Positions 34,252 through 39,561 of a DNA stretch of 39,561 bases are shown one piece after another. This DNA is from Clostridiales bacterium. GTDB taxonomy: Bacteria; Bacillota; Clostridia; Christensenellales; JAISNN01. Position 1 is the stretch's first letter. Each line of letters opens with the position of its first letter. The stretch covers positions 1 through 39,561 of the forward strand of contig JAISRB010000132.1 in assembly GCA_031273825.1 (NCBI GenBank). Reading direction: 5' to 3'. A program made the position numbers and the translations under genes. Below the pieces are notes generated by a model. It worked only from the letters and a program-made list of their open reading frames with translations, had not been told where the DNA came from and ran no database searches.

Positions 34252-34280
34252 TTGACAAAGTTTTTTAATTATAGTATAAT
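34252..34280 (+). promoter_or_regulatory. Promoter of the aromatic amino acid operon
   Basis: TTGACA and TATAAT are perfect and spaced by 17 bases. The predicted start lies at 34287-34290, at or beside the leader-peptide ATG. Confidence 0.9.
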
Positions 34281-34289
34281 AACAACAAT

Positions 34290-34370
34290 ATGAAAAAAAT
34301 AATCAATAATGTCTATTTTGTTTACCGTTTCTTTTTCGGCTGGTTTTACTTTAGCCGCGGTTTACTATAG
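34290..34370 (+). CDS. Aromatic-rich leader peptide of the aro operon
   Basis: This 26-codon frame, absent from the ORF track, holds the run VYFVYRFFFGWFYF. In total 10 of 26 residues are aromatic (six Phe, three Tyr, one Trp). It ends at TAG 34 bases before a terminator hairpin and lies between the operon promoter and the first aro gene, the classic arrangement for attenuation by ribosome stalling. Stalling at Phe/Tyr codons when charged tRNAs are scarce would let RNA polymerase continue. No ribosome site precedes the ATG, and transcription seems to start within about three bases of it, so a leaderless peptide is likely. I could not identify a clean antiterminator; CGGCT/AGCCG inside the frame is one possible hairpin. 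Confidence 0.8.
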   Translation: MKKIINNVYFVYRFFFGWFYFSRGLL

Positions 34371-34403
34371 ACATATATTGACAATTTTAAGCACAACAAT
34401 GCG

Positions 34404-34444
34404 AGGGAGTTGCCGATGTATGGCGACTCCCTTTAATTTTTTTT
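34404..34444 (+). terminator. Attenuator terminator of the aro operon
   Basis: AGGGAGTTGCC pairs with GGCGACTCCCT (11 bp with one wobble) around GATGTAT, followed by a T-rich run TTTAATTTTTTTT. It lies between the leader peptide and aroF; the aroF ribosome site (AGGAGAG) starts right after the T-run. Confidence 0.88.
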
Positions 34445-34459
34445 AGGAGAGAAAAAGCA

Positions 34460-35290
34460 ATGGAACTCAAAGAAAAGGCATTCAAGAGCGTCAGCCGGAA
34501 GGCTCATCCCGAGGACACCGTAATAGATATCGGCGGCGGAGTCAAATTCGGCGGCGGAAATTTTACGGTAATAGCCGGCCCGTGCTCCGTCGAGTCGGAG
34601 GAGCAGATTGTCGGCATAGCCAAAAGCGTCAAAAAATCGGGCGCGCGCGCCCTGCGCGGCGGAGCCTTTAAGCCGCGCTCGTCGCCTTACGCCTTTCAGG
34701 GGTTAAAGGCTCTAGGAATGGACTACCTGTTGGAGGCAAAGCGCGAAACCGGCCTGCCGATTGTCACGGAAATTTTGAATATAGCGCACCTTAGCCTCTT
34801 TCGCGACGTGGACGTCATTCAGGTGGGCGCGAGAAATATGCAAAACTTTGAGCTGCTTAAGGAGCTTGGCAAAACCGACAAGCCTATACTTTTGAAGCGC
34901 GGGCTTGCCAACACCCTGCAGGAGCTGATGATGAGCGCGGAATACATTATGTCCGAGGGCAACGCGAGGGTCATACTCTGCGAGCGCGGAATAAGAACCT
35001 TTGAGGGCGTGACGAGAAACACTCTCGACCTGTCGTGCATTCCTATTATAAAGGAGGCGACGCATCTGCCCGTCATAGTCGACCCGAGCCATTCGACGGG
35101 AATAGCGCGGCTTGTCGCGCCTATGTCCTATGCGTCGATGGCGGCGGGCGCGGACGGATTGATTATAGAGGTTCACAACGACCCGGAAAACGCGCTTTGC
35201 GACGGCGACCAATCGATTTTGCCCGCGGAATTTGATTTTATAACGCAAAAGCTAAAAATGATGGCCGGGTTGTTTGACAAAAAGCTTTGA
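34460..35290 (+). CDS. aroF: 3-deoxy-7-phosphoheptulonate (DAHP) synthase
   Basis: The 276-residue enzyme condenses phosphoenolpyruvate and erythrose-4-phosphate, the first step of the shikimate pathway. It belongs to the type I-beta (KDO8P-like) group: IAGPCSVESEEQI, LRGGAFKPRSSPYAFQGL, LLKRGLANTLQELMM and VDPSHSTGIARLVAP are visible. Only about 35 residues precede the barrel, so the N-terminal ACT-like or chorismate-mutase regulatory domain of some relatives is missing. That fits control by attenuation instead of end-product binding. GGAG lies about ten bases before the ATG. First structural gene of the operon. Confidence 0.95.
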   Translation: MELKEKAFKSVSRKAHPEDTVIDIGGGVKFGGGNFTVIAGPCSVESEEQIVGIAKSVKKSGARALRGGAFKPRSSPYAFQGLKALGMDYLLEAKRETGLPIVTEILNIAHLSLFRDVDVIQVGARNMQNFELLKELGKTDKPILLKRGLANTLQELMMSAEYIMSEGNARVILCERGIRTFEGVTRNTLDLSCIPIIKEATHLPVIVDPSHSTGIARLVAPMSYASMAAGADGLIIEVHNDPENALCDGDQSILPAEFDFITQKLKMMAGLFDKKL

Positions 35291-35350: not shown

Positions 35351-36409
35351 ATGAAAAAACTGCGTGTAAATATCGCCGCCGGTTATGATATAATTATATC
35401 TAAGGGCGCGCTCGACGCGATAGGCGAAACCGTGTCGGCCGTCGCTAAAAGAGCCGAAAAAATCGCTGTCATATGCGACGACATAGTCGACGGGCTTTAT
35501 TCGGAGCGCGTTATGAATTCGGTTGAGGCAAGCGGAAAACTGCCCTTAAAATACGTTTTCAAAAACGGAGAGGCCTCAAAAAACGCCGCCGAATACATAA
35601 AAATTCTCGAATTTTTGGGGCGGAGCAGGCTGACGCGAACCGACGCGGTCATAGCCCTTGGCGGCGGCGTTACCGGCGACATGGCCGGCTTTGCCGCGGC
35701 GACCTATCTGAGGGGAATAACCCTCGTTCAGGCTCCGACGACGCTCCTTGCCGCCGTCGATTCGTCGGTGGGCGGCAAGACGGGAATCAATCTTTCGACG
35801 GGCAAAAATCTCGCGGGCTGTTTTTTTCAGCCGTCGGCGGTCGTCTGCGATTTAGATACGCTAAAAACTCTGTCGGACGACCTCATAGCCGACGGAATGG
35901 GCGAAATAATAAAGCACGCCGTGCTAAAGGGCGGCGGTGACTTTGACCTGCTGTCGGGCTTTTCGGCCTCCGCCGACGCGGATTTTGAGGAGATAATCGC
36001 CCGTTCGGTCAAAATCAAGCGCGACGTCGTGCAGGCCGACGAAAGGGAAAGCAATTTGAGAAAGCTTCTCAATCTCGGGCATACCGTCGGTCACGCCGTG
36101 GAAAAGCTGTCCGAATACAAGCTTCATCACGGCAAATGCGTGGCTATAGGGCTTGCGTATATAGCCGAATTGTCCTTTAAAAAAGGCTTTTTGCAGGCCG
36201 CCGACCGTCAAAAAATCTTTAAGGCAATCGAAAATCAGGGAATCGACGCCGCCTGCCCTTATAGCGCGGAGCAAATGGCAAAGGTAATTGCCGGCGACAA
36301 AAAGGTCAGCGGAAAAAAACTGACGCTCGTCATGATTAAAGGCATAGGAGATTGTTTTTTGCACGACATAGAAACGCGCGAAGCGGGGGAATATCTCTCG
36401 TTGGCCTAA
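35351..36409 (+). CDS. aroB: 3-dehydroquinate synthase
   Basis: This 352-residue enzyme makes 3-dehydroquinate from DAHP with NAD+ and a divalent metal, the second step of the pathway. The NAD site is seen in VIALGGGVTGDMAGFAAATY, followed by the conserved QAPTTLLAAVDSSVGGKTGI. The metal site includes Glu and His residues in DGMGEIIKHAVL, LNLGHTVGHAVE and LHHGKCVAIGL. The length is normal. The ribosome site is weak and the gap from aroF is 60 bases with no terminator. It is followed by aroA after 26 bases. Confidence 0.95.
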   Translation: MKKLRVNIAAGYDIIISKGALDAIGETVSAVAKRAEKIAVICDDIVDGLYSERVMNSVEASGKLPLKYVFKNGEASKNAAEYIKILEFLGRSRLTRTDAVIALGGGVTGDMAGFAAATYLRGITLVQAPTTLLAAVDSSVGGKTGINLSTGKNLAGCFFQPSAVVCDLDTLKTLSDDLIADGMGEIIKHAVLKGGGDFDLLSGFSASADADFEEIIARSVKIKRDVVQADERESNLRKLLNLGHTVGHAVEKLSEYKLHHGKCVAIGLAYIAELSFKKGFLQAADRQKIFKAIENQGIDAACPYSAEQMAKVIAGDKKVSGKKLTLVMIKGIGDCFLHDIETREAGEYLSLA

Positions 36410-36435
36410 AGAGAAAGCAAAGGATAGAAACGCAA

Positions 36436-37698
36436 ATGGTTGAGGTTATAAAAAAGACATTTTTGAAGGGCAGGCTGCCGGTCATAACGTCAAAGTCCGC
36501 CGCTCACCGCATAATGATATGCGCGGCGGCGGCAGACAAGCCGACCGCCGTGACCGGCTTGAACGACTCCGCCGACGTCGCCGCGACAAGGCGGTGTCTG
36601 ACGGCTCTCGGCGCGTCCTTTGACGACGCCTGCGGCGGCGTGACCGTCGTTACGCCGATAAGGCTGTCGGAGTCGAAAAAGCCTGCCGAGTATGTCGATC
36701 TATACTGCGGCGAGAGCGGCTCGACGCTGAGGTTTTTGTTGCCGTTTGCGGCGGCTATAGGCGCGCGCGCGCGGTTTTTTTGCGAGGGACGGTTGCCCGA
36801 GCGGCCTATTGACGACCTTATCGCCGTCATGACAAAAAACGGCGCAAAGATAACAAGAGAGGGCGGCGCGATCGTCGTCGGCAACGGTATAAGCGCGGGT
36901 CTATACCGCGTCGGCGGCAAGGTAAGCTCGCAGTTTACCTCCGGGCTTTTGATGGCTCTGCCGACGCTTTGCGGTCAAAGCAAGATAATTTGCGACGCGG
37001 ACGCGGAGTCTAAGGGCTATATAGACCTGACCTTTGACATAATCAAAAAATTCGGCGCGGACGCGGAATTTGCCGACGGGATATACGACGTGAGGGGAGG
37101 GCGGCCCTACGTCTCTCCCCAAAAAATCACCGTCGAGGGCGATTGGTCAAACGCGGCGTTTTTTATCGTCGCGGCGGCGTTAAACGGAGACGTGACGCTT
37201 TGCGGGCTTGACGTCAATTCGCGCCAGCCCGACAAAAAAATTTTGGAAATCATACGCCGAATGGGCGGTGACATAAAGATAGAGGCAAACGGAGATATCG
37301 CAATAAAAAAATCGCGGCTGACCGCCGTCGATATCGACGCGGGAGAAATTCCCGACCTCGTTCCCGTGCTTAGCGTCGCGGCGGGCGCGGCCAAGGGGCG
37401 CGCGGTCATATATAACGCGGGGCGGCTCAGGCTCAAAGAAAGCGACCGTCTTGCCGCCGCCGCCGCCATGATAAACATTGCCGGAGGCCGCGCCGCAATC
37501 GACGGCGACAGCCTGATAATAGACGGCGCGGACGCTTATAGGCCGGCCGTCATAGACAGCGTAAACGACCATCGCATGGCCATGTCGGCGGCGGTTTTGG
37601 CCTATGCCGCCGACGGAGAAATAACCGTGACAAACGCGCGGGCGGTAGAAAAATCTTACCCTAAGTTTTTTGACGACTTAAAAAAACTCGGGGAATAA
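36436..37698 (+). CDS. aroA: 3-phosphoshikimate 1-carboxyvinyltransferase (EPSP synthase)
   Basis: The ORF-track start at 36352 lies inside aroB; the ATG at 36436 gives 420 residues, the normal length. It transfers enolpyruvate from PEP to shikimate-3-phosphate. Visible are KSAAHRIMICAAAADKP (substrate site), YCGESGSTLRFLLP in place of the usual G-N-A/S-G-T-x-x-R loop, GRLPERPIDDLI, SSQFTSGLLMALP and DSVNDHRMAMSAAV. The loop has Glu where many enzymes have Asn, which should be checked. The ribosome site is weak (AAAGGA at about 12 bases). Genes for dehydroquinase, shikimate dehydrogenase and shikimate kinase are not in the window. Confidence 0.93.
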   Translation: MVEVIKKTFLKGRLPVITSKSAAHRIMICAAAADKPTAVTGLNDSADVAATRRCLTALGASFDDACGGVTVVTPIRLSESKKPAEYVDLYCGESGSTLRFLLPFAAAIGARARFFCEGRLPERPIDDLIAVMTKNGAKITREGGAIVVGNGISAGLYRVGGKVSSQFTSGLLMALPTLCGQSKIICDADAESKGYIDLTFDIIKKFGADAEFADGIYDVRGGRPYVSPQKITVEGDWSNAAFFIVAAALNGDVTLCGLDVNSRQPDKKILEIIRRMGGDIKIEANGDIAIKKSRLTAVDIDAGEIPDLVPVLSVAAGAAKGRAVIYNAGRLRLKESDRLAAAAAMINIAGGRAAIDGDSLIIDGADAYRPAVIDSVNDHRMAMSAAVLAYAADGEITVTNARAVEKSYPKFFDDLKKLGE

Positions 37699-37746: not shown

Positions 37747-38832
37747 ATGTCGCTATTCGGAAAAAACTACGTCGTCGACATATTCGGCGAATCGCATTCG
37801 CGGGCAATCGGCGCGGTCATAAGCGGCCTGCCCGCGGGGACCGATATAGACGAGAGTCAAATAAGAGCCTTTTTAGACAGGCGCAAGCCGTCAAGCGCGG
37901 CGTTTTCGACAAAACGGCGCGAGGGCGACGTATTTAAGATATTGTCGGGAGTTTTAGACGGCAAAAGCACAGGCGCGCCTATAGCCCTCATAATCGAAAA
38001 CGCCGACACGCGCTCCGCCGACTATGAAAGCTTAAAGAGAACGTTCAGACCGTCGCATTCCGACTACGCCGCCTACGTCAAATACGGCGGCTTCAACGAC
38101 TACAGAGGCGGCGGACAGTTTTCGGGACGGCTGACCGCGCCGCTTTGCGCCGCCGGAAGCATAGCCCTTTCGGTTCTGGCAAAACGCGGCGTAGAGGTCG
38201 TCGCCTATATTTCGTCGATAGGAAAGACCTCCGCGGCCTCGTATAACGGCTTATCGGCGGCTTTAAAGGAGCTTGATTGCGAAAAAATAAGAGAAATTAA
38301 GCAAGCCGATTATCCGTTGCTTGACAAATCCCGCAAAGACGCTATAATAAAAGAGATAGAAAACGCGGCTAAAGGCGGCGACTCCGTCGGCGGCGTAATC
38401 GAATGCGTCATCAAAGGGCTTCCGGCCGGCTTCGGCGGCGCGATTTTTGACGGCTTAGAGAGCAAGCTGTCGGCCGCGATATTCGGAATTCCCGCCGTCA
38501 AGGGCATAGAATTCGGCGCGGGCTTCGGCGTATCGGCCATGAGAGGGAGCGCGGCAAACGACGCGATGTTCTTTGACGGCGGCGTTATCGTCACGCGGAC
38601 AAACAACTGCGGAGGAATAACCGGCGGAATATCAAACGGAATGCCCGTAACCTTCAGGACGGCCTTCAAGCCCGTTCCGTCGATAGCCTTAGAGCAGGAC
38701 ACGATAGACATAGACCGCCGCGAAAATACAAAAATCAAAATAGCCGGACGGCACGATAGCTGCATAGTTCCGCGCGCCGTGCCCGTAGTCGAGGCCGCCG
38801 CCGCGTGCGTGTTGCTGGATATTTTATTATAG
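37747..38832 (+). CDS. aroC: Chorismate synthase
   Basis: The 361-residue FMN-dependent enzyme makes chorismate from EPSP, the last common step. FGESHSRAIGAVISGLPAGT is the conserved N-terminus, followed by SHSDYAAYVKYGGFNDYRGG with GGQFSGRLTA. The conserved RTNNCGGITGGISNGMPV lies later, and RHDSCIVPRAVPVVEA near the end. GGAG precedes the ATG. It follows aroA by 48 bases and precedes the pheA-type gene by 54 bases, so the genes are one operon. Confidence 0.96.
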   Translation: MSLFGKNYVVDIFGESHSRAIGAVISGLPAGTDIDESQIRAFLDRRKPSSAAFSTKRREGDVFKILSGVLDGKSTGAPIALIIENADTRSADYESLKRTFRPSHSDYAAYVKYGGFNDYRGGGQFSGRLTAPLCAAGSIALSVLAKRGVEVVAYISSIGKTSAASYNGLSAALKELDCEKIREIKQADYPLLDKSRKDAIIKEIENAAKGGDSVGGVIECVIKGLPAGFGGAIFDGLESKLSAAIFGIPAVKGIEFGAGFGVSAMRGSAANDAMFFDGGVIVTRTNNCGGITGGISNGMPVTFRTAFKPVPSIALEQDTIDIDRRENTKIKIAGRHDSCIVPRAVPVVEAAAACVLLDILL

Positions 38833-38886: not shown

Positions 38887-39561
38887 GTGAGCATAGACGA
38901 TTTGAGGAGCAAAATAGACCTTATCGACGACAAAATAGCCGCCGAATATTCGGAGCGGCTGAGGCTCGTCAAAAGCATGGGCGAGGAAAAAAAGGCCGAC
39001 GGCGCGGACGTTTTGAACGTAGAGCGCGAAAATAAAATTTTGGAGCGTCTGACGCGCGGCAAGGACTTTAAAACGGCGGGCTATATAAAGGAATTGTATT
39101 CGATCATCTTTGAGACGAGCCGCCGGATTCAGTCGGAATATCTCAATTTTACCATATTCGACGAGATACGGCGGATTGTGTCGTCAAATATGCCGCCGTT
39201 CCCAAAAAAGATGAAAACGGCGTGTCAGGGCGCAAAGGGCGCGTTTTCTCATATCGCCGCCGGCAAGATATTCAAAGACCCCGACATAACCTTTTACGAT
39301 ACCTTTGAGGACGTATTTAAGGCCGTCGAAAGAGGCGAGTGCGAGGTCGGAATTTTGCCTATCGAAAACAGTATCGCAGGCTCGGTAAACGAGATATACG
39401 ACCTCATGAGACGCTATAAGCTATATATAATCCGCAGCGCAAAAATAAAGGTCGAGCACAGCCTGATTGCCAACAAGGGCGTCAAGCTTGAGGATATCAA
39501 GGAGGTCTACTCAAAGGAGCAGGCTCTCGCCCAATGCGGCGGCTTTTTGAAGGCCAATAGC
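38887..39561 (+). CDS. pheA: Chorismate mutase/prephenate dehydratase, cut by the window end
   Basis: The frame is open from a GTG at 38887 to the end of the window (225 codons, no stop), so it is missing from the ORF track. AAAAGGAG precedes the GTG. Residues 1-90 are a chorismate mutase of the AroQ type (SIDDLRSKIDLIDDKI, then LNVERENKIL). From about residue 109 a prephenate dehydratase domain begins: KTACQGAKGAFSHIAAGKIF, FEDVFKAVERGECEVGILPI and ENSIAGSVNEIYDLM. Together they convert chorismate to phenylpyruvate, so the operon leads to phenylalanine, consistent with the Phe-rich leader. The C-terminal ACT domain, if any, is outside the window. Confidence 0.93.
   Translation, partial: MSIDDLRSKIDLIDDKIAAEYSERLRLVKSMGEEKKADGADVLNVERENKILERLTRGKDFKTAGYIKELYSIIFETSRRIQSEYLNFTIFDEIRRIVSSNMPPFPKKMKTACQGAKGAFSHIAAGKIFKDPDITFYDTFEDVFKAVERGECEVGILPIENSIAGSVNEIYDLMRRYKLYIIRSAKIKVEHSLIANKGVKLEDIKEVYSKEQALAQCGGFLKANS

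Follow-up and report, generated by a model that had tools for sequence, protein, structure and literature searches.

A predicted near-leaderless Phe/Tyr-codon attenuator before aroF in Clostridia

Known leader-peptide attenuators

Classical attenuators combine a short frame rich in codons for the pathway product with an antiterminator that competes with a terminator, the stop codon of the frame being placed so as to cover the antiterminator strand. T-boxes, TRAP or repressors are the usual explanation for the control of aromatic amino acid genes in Firmicutes. We analyzed a contig of 39,561 nucleotides from a Clostridiales bacterium (JAISRB010000132.1, referred to as the window), part of a 1.74 Mb genome assembly that is 89% complete, in which an aromatic-rich frame precedes an aroF-aroB-aroA-aroC-pheA operon. 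This leader shares with the E. coli attenuators of the pheA, trp and his type the short frame rich in product codons, the mutually exclusive antiterminator and terminator, and a stop codon positioned to cover the antiterminator strand (the principle of leader-peptide attenuation is reviewed in PMC1183508). It differs from them in being near-leaderless without a ribosome site, in mixing Phe and Tyr codons, in preceding aroF in Clostridia and in having no Rfam match.

Three further systems are close to it. The uORFC-13-1 element of Acholeplasma is also an upstream frame with one or more Phe codons, a promoter and a terminator, and is found exclusively before aroF; unlike the window leader, it has a ribosome site and at least one Phe codon in a U run, and it is restricted to Acholeplasma and environmental sequences (PMC8632094). 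Judged by that ribosome site, the window leader falls outside uORFC-13-1, as it has no Shine-Dalgarno (SD) pairing. The trpL mRNA of Sinorhizobium meliloti begins at the ATG of its leader peptide (PMC7298713), which resembles the predicted end in the window, whereas trpL is alphaproteobacterial, concerns Trp, encodes 14 residues and was mapped experimentally (PMC7298713). The His and Ilv attenuators of Firmicutes rely on the same leader-peptide attenuation, and those of his genes replace T-boxes in some lineages (PMC9413887, PMC2965389, PMC5864092, PMC5794164), but they serve other amino acids; aromatic operons and aroF are unmentioned in PMC2965389. In view of these four reports, a stalling attenuator in Firmicutes, which a previous sequence-only reading of the window had called notable, is less exceptional than thought, and it is the near-leaderless aromatic form that is new.

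Ribosome-mediated attenuation itself is classical; the new elements are the near-leaderless mixed Phe/Tyr form found in Clostridia and the breadth of its use, matched to operon content. The breadth of the aroF leaders of Clostridia is apparently unrecorded: a literature search gave no account of aromatic leader peptides upstream of this gene in the class, which is weak evidence as subscription journals lay mostly outside the search.

The leader of the aroF operon and its conservation in the genus

The features of the locus, all on the + strand, are as follows:

34252..34280, +, sigma-70 type promoter TTGACA-17-TATAAT, 12/12 match
34290..34370, +, near-leaderless 26-codon aromatic leader peptide MKKIINNVYFVYRFFFGWFYFSRGLL with its stop codon, conserved in 6/6 genus genomes
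34403..34443, +, intrinsic terminator, hairpin (34403-34433) with U tract, from a sequence scan; hairpin conserved
34460..35290, +, aroF, DAHP synthase without FXD regulatory domain (TIGR01361, PF00793 only)
35351..36409, +, aroB (TIGR01357)
36352..37698, +, aroA (TIGR01356); the listed start overlaps aroB and the true start may be downstream
37747..38832, +, aroC (TIGR00033)
38887..39561, +, pheA, chorismate mutase-prephenate dehydratase, truncated by the contig end (PF01817 and PF00800)

An AGGAG ribosome site and the aroF ATG at 34460 follow the leader terminator. We compared the window genome with five others of its genus, which together are all sampled members of the family. Among named records, Clostridiales bacterium isolate Kf353_bin26 (L112) belongs to this genus. 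The AroF proteins of the five relatives are 87-89% identical to that of the window, and all five keep the promoter, ATG, peptide and terminator, so that the promoter, frame and terminator which the sequence-only reading had described are present in each of the six genomes. The distance from terminator to aroF ranges between 16 and about 400 nt within the genus, which marks the leader as the conserved unit. AroF of the window operon lacks the N-terminal FXD domain (PF18152), which is present in a paralogue of the genus (L008). Further 12/12 matches to the sigma-70 promoter occur in the window at 2511, 7700, 33106 and 38321; the last lies inside aroC, and there is no obvious gene start just downstream of 7700.

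The frame runs from the ATG at 34290 to the TAG at 34368-34370 and has ten aromatic codons among its 26 (F6 Y3 W1). Across the whole window, only one other frame, on the - strand, has at least 7 aromatics making up at least 33% of its residues. The six genus peptides (MKKIINNVYFVYRFFFGWFYFSRGLL, MNKLLRNVYFVFNFFFGWFYFSRFFA, MNRVLKNVYFAFSFFFGWFYFSRFLRCK, MNKLLKNVYYAFTFFFGWFYFSRYFVCR, MNKLSNKFYFAYRFFFGWFYFSRFYLCK and MKKLLKNVYYAFNFFYGWFCFSRKLACR) share the consensus KNVYF.F.FFFGWFYFSR, and differences among the six genomes are distributed over the three codon positions as 34/60/99, mostly third positions, a coding-type pattern. An overlapping frame at 34309-34446, to which a possible role had been ascribed, does exist in the window and was dropped as a candidate: its start is lost in G005, it is shortened in G001 and G003, and this +1 frame shows 8 synonymous against 85 non-synonymous single changes in the six genomes.

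The promoter scores 12/12 in five of the six genomes and 11/12 in the sixth. The leader ATG lies 9-10 nt downstream of the -10 box (9 nt in the window), and the anti-SD pairing energy upstream of it, +0.7 in the window and +0.7 to +1.8 across the genus, amounts to no pairing, in agreement with the earlier claim of a perfect promoter and no ribosome site. With transcription starting about 7 nt past the -10 box, the 5' UTR in this genus is likely to be 2-4 nt long. The term leaderless therefore holds in so far as the promoter adjoins an ATG without SD sequence, and gives way to near-leaderless for the mRNA end, which is predicted to fall shortly before the ATG and not exactly on it. Leaderless genes in Firmicutes have been reported mainly in Lactobacillales and Mycoplasma (PMC3160421).

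No Rfam family reached its cut-off in the window, and nothing in the leader had an E-value below 0.9. The T-box model (RF00230) in particular reached gathering score nowhere in the window, and the leader had no hit to it up to E = 10. In five genus genomes trpE has a T-box ahead of it; in the sixth, the contig starts too near trpE to tell:

G000:C129:11496-11817 (L212, the window genome), T-box before trpE, T-box model match; relatives L208-L211

T-box control is thus available to this lineage but is not used on aroF here. Among 40 further aroF regions of the order, Rfam matched a T-box in two (L107 in G076 and L108 in G056). Both are in family f29 and have no leader peptide, which points to a different sensing system on aroF in that family.

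Alternative helices around the stop codon

The whole leader folds with z = -6.9 relative to shuffled sequences. Its terminator hairpin, which runs into a T-rich tail containing eight T's, is kept throughout the genus, with U-A/U-G/C-G changes at one pair, as expected from the intrinsic terminator proposed between frame and aroF. Five further elements were delineated:

34309..34316, +, strand 1 AUGUCUAU, forming protector helix 1:2 with strand 2
34337..34357, +, local hairpin CGGCUGG...UUUAGCCG within the aromatic codons, from MFE folds
34367..34374, +, strand 2, 5' part AUAGACAU, containing the stop codon and pairing with strand 1
34372..34383, +, strand 2, 3' part CAUAUAUUGACA, the antiterminator strand, 66/66 cells paired with strand 3
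34411..34422, +, strand 3 UGCCGAUGUAUG, the 5' arm and loop of the terminator, pairing with strand 2

The antiterminator (34372-34383 : 34411-34422) comprises eleven pairs, and all 66 cells of the six-genome comparison are standard pairs; sliding one strand by 1-3 columns lowers this to 18-47%. The downstream partner includes the terminator loop, GAU(A/G)U(A/G)U in the genus, and the upstream partner belongs to a segment, AAACAUAUAUUGACA or a near variant, that follows the stop codon in all six genomes. Four of the pairs vary, on one side only (A/G opposite U) and always keeping the pair; no double compensatory change was found among the six genus genomes. A reason for the conservation of the terminator loop other than this pairing is not evident from the alignment.

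When the 3' arm of the terminator was omitted, mimicking the RNA just before RNA polymerase makes that arm, the antiterminator was the MFE structure for each of the six species, at -7.5 to -16.0 kcal/mol, and a duplex as good was reached by 1-12 of 1000 shuffles. Folds of the full-length leader contain no antiterminator because the terminator wins at equilibrium (-23.3 versus about -16). The antiterminator for which the sequence-only reading had suggested a fold as a check is therefore present as a conserved pairing, seen with the 3' arm left out, and the switch must be kinetic, that is, dependent on timing. Known attenuators likewise depend on timing.

The antiterminator strand begins 8 nt past the stop codon in G002 and 1 nt past it in the five other genomes. 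Given the size of a ribosome, one terminating at this stop should cover the strand, and one stalled at the Phe/Tyr codons should not. The protector helix (34309-34316 : 34367-34374) has all its pairs in five of six genomes, including one compensatory C-G/U-A change, and two broken pairs in G005; in the window genome (G000) the helix is longer and would conceal the antiterminator strand, and elsewhere it reaches only part of that strand. The local hairpin at 34337-34357 is near-invariant in the genus and holds the single conserved Trp codon; it could be a pause hairpin or reflect a constraint on the peptide.

Aromatic leaders in other families and the signal they would sense

A covariance model of the leader (R1), weakened by an inner helix that was off by one column, an error which left the other results unaffected, detected a single true homologue outside the family; it lies in G123, upstream of an aroF that has the N-terminal domain. 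Its other weak matches outside the genus had, on inspection, no aromatic leader before an aro gene. As R1 gave no other convincing homologue outside the genus, the comparison at the family level was made by reading aroF upstream regions. Under a relaxed criterion (an ATG frame with at least 6 aromatics in 14 residues, with expectations from dinucleotide shuffles), aromatic leader frames precede aroF in 44 of 64 sampled genomes of the order, against 1.7 expected and 2 on the reverse strand, and at 51 of 78 aroF loci of named, mostly Clostridia records, against 2.6 expected. A stricter criterion retains 27/64 (0.15 expected) and 27/78 (0.45 expected), respectively. Cultured carriers include Sporobacter termitidis (leader MRNVLFTASYYFYFYFYWDEVRAIDAAKSAI in DSM 10068, L188), Aminicella lysinilytica (MRNLNASAAYYYYYFFFNNEKKRFAV in DSM 28287, L155), Angelakisella massiliensis and Emergencia sp. 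1XD21-10.

A terminator follows 45 of the 58 leader frames examined in detail, at stop +15 to +80 except for one at +161. Aromatic frame and terminator thus occur jointly at homologous loci, both in the six genus members and in many other families, as the attenuation proposal had predicted. An antiterminator duplex was found at p<0.05 in 24 of 44 leaders tested, and at p <=0.01 in 16 of them. The leaders of other families have their aromatic content in common, and neither a peptide motif nor any recognisable RNA sequence shared with the window leader. With the thresholds chosen, 46 leaders outside the window genus show clear anti-SD pairing and 40 belong to neither class, and at 12 other loci from several families the leader ATG lies within 12 nt of a -10 box. 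The distance is exactly 6 nt at nine of these 12, which would make the A of the ATG the first base of the mRNA; all 5' ends in this comparison are predicted from promoter position.

The codons of these leaders vary with the genes downstream. Tyr makes up on average 0.49 of Phe+Tyr codons where tyrA follows aroF and 0.22 where no tyrA was found within 1.8 kb downstream of aroF, a difference whose p = 0.00025 is indicative only, given related sequences and a small tyrA-less group of five loci plus the window genus (30% Tyr among Phe+Tyr). The same pattern is seen inside the genus. Its second DAHP synthase, which has the FXD domain in the tested copy (L008), has tyrA behind it. Of five genus genomes, four (G005, G001, G002 and G003) carry a Tyr-rich frame and a terminator ahead of this second aroF-tyrA (L008, L010, L011 and L012; for example MKRNFVLNAYYYGYGYYYDGRCFDMR, F2 Y7, and MKNKGKFNAYYTAYGYYYLSRDFSMR). 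No second DAHP synthase was found in the 89% complete assembly of the window genome. Judged from their sequences, the aroF-tyrA leaders are the Tyr-specific counterpart of the Phe-rich leader in the window, and the occurrence of both in one genus is the best independent evidence suggesting that the codons are the sensor. The sequence-only reading took the mixture of residues as a sensor of general aromatic starvation. This is not upheld: the codons are Phe-heavy, with some Tyr and a single Trp, which fits an aroF...pheA operon, the aroF-tyrA leaders are Tyr-richer, and trpE has a T-box in the same genomes. The predicted signal should read mainly phenylalanine, with tyrosine.

We consider it very probable that the locus is a ribosome-mediated transcription attenuator that senses Phe/Tyr codons. 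The layout proposed for it is borne out by the observed coding frame, promoter geometry, terminator, antiterminator, stop position, recurrence before aroF in Clostridia and operon-following codons. Counting against it are the advantage of the terminator at equilibrium, the protector helix, which is broken at two pairs in G005 and only partial outside the window genome, and the one-sidedness of the antiterminator variation. The observations also bear on three other explanations. The frame could be the gene of a small aromatic, perhaps membrane, protein, transcribed from a promoter of its own up to its own terminator and with no part in aroF control; it has a strong promoter, start, stop and terminator, and the peptide is conserved in the genus. 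However, no other promoter scoring at least 11/12 lies between 34280 and aroF at 34460, the terminator loop is conserved to match sequence past the stop codon, and in other families the leaders differ yet stay aromatic, before aroF and with a terminator close behind, their codons following the presence of tyrA. A small-protein gene is therefore very improbable.

We give as little credence to a metabolite- or tRNA-binding leader RNA, a riboswitch or T-box-like element in which the open frame is incidental. The strong structure (z = -6.9) and near-invariant parts such as the hairpin at 34337-34357 would suit it, but the Rfam comparison gave no family, the frame shows coding-type changes, and the leaders of other families share aromatic codons without recognisable RNA sequence. 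The peptide could also sense another signal, either through nascent-peptide arrest at FFFGWFYFSR together with a free aromatic amino acid, as in TnaC, or as a gauge of general translation speed. Conservation of the genus peptide beyond its aromatic content, including GW and SR, speaks for this; across families, however, the aromatic content is common and the motif is not, and the F:Y content follows the operon, which fits codon sensing and leaves a signal of this kind improbable.

In the attenuator that we favor, start site, translation, stalling and read-through are predicted as follows. RNA polymerase would start a few nt upstream of the leader ATG, and the near-leaderless end would be where a ribosome loads. 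With plentiful charged Phe-tRNA (and Tyr-tRNA), the ribosome would reach the UAG at 34368-34370 and cover 34372-34383, so that the terminator at 34403-34443 forms. Stalling in the Phe/Tyr run (34314-34352) would leave 34372-34383 free to pair with the emerging 34411-34422; this pairing would block the terminator hairpin, and aroF-aroB-aroA-aroC-pheA would be transcribed. The DAHP synthase of this operon may rely on attenuation in place of feedback inhibition.

On a wider scale, it seems rather likely that leader-peptide attenuation is the prevailing control of aroF in much of Clostridia, with a Phe:Tyr mix set by the terminal-branch genes of the operon and, in several lineages, with no ribosome site and the peptide at the mRNA end. 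If this is true, a cell with Tyr-rich leaders on aroF-tyrA and Phe-rich leaders on aroF...pheA would place each of its two DAHP synthases under separate end-product control through codons alone. The occurrence of matched leaders for Phe and Tyr within one genus is a natural experiment on what determines attenuator specificity, and the leaderless forms would allow testing whether the first ribosome is better coupled to RNA polymerase when it initiates at the mRNA end. A widespread, Rfam-unmatched codon-sensing switch on aroF would change the annotation of this pathway in Clostridia.
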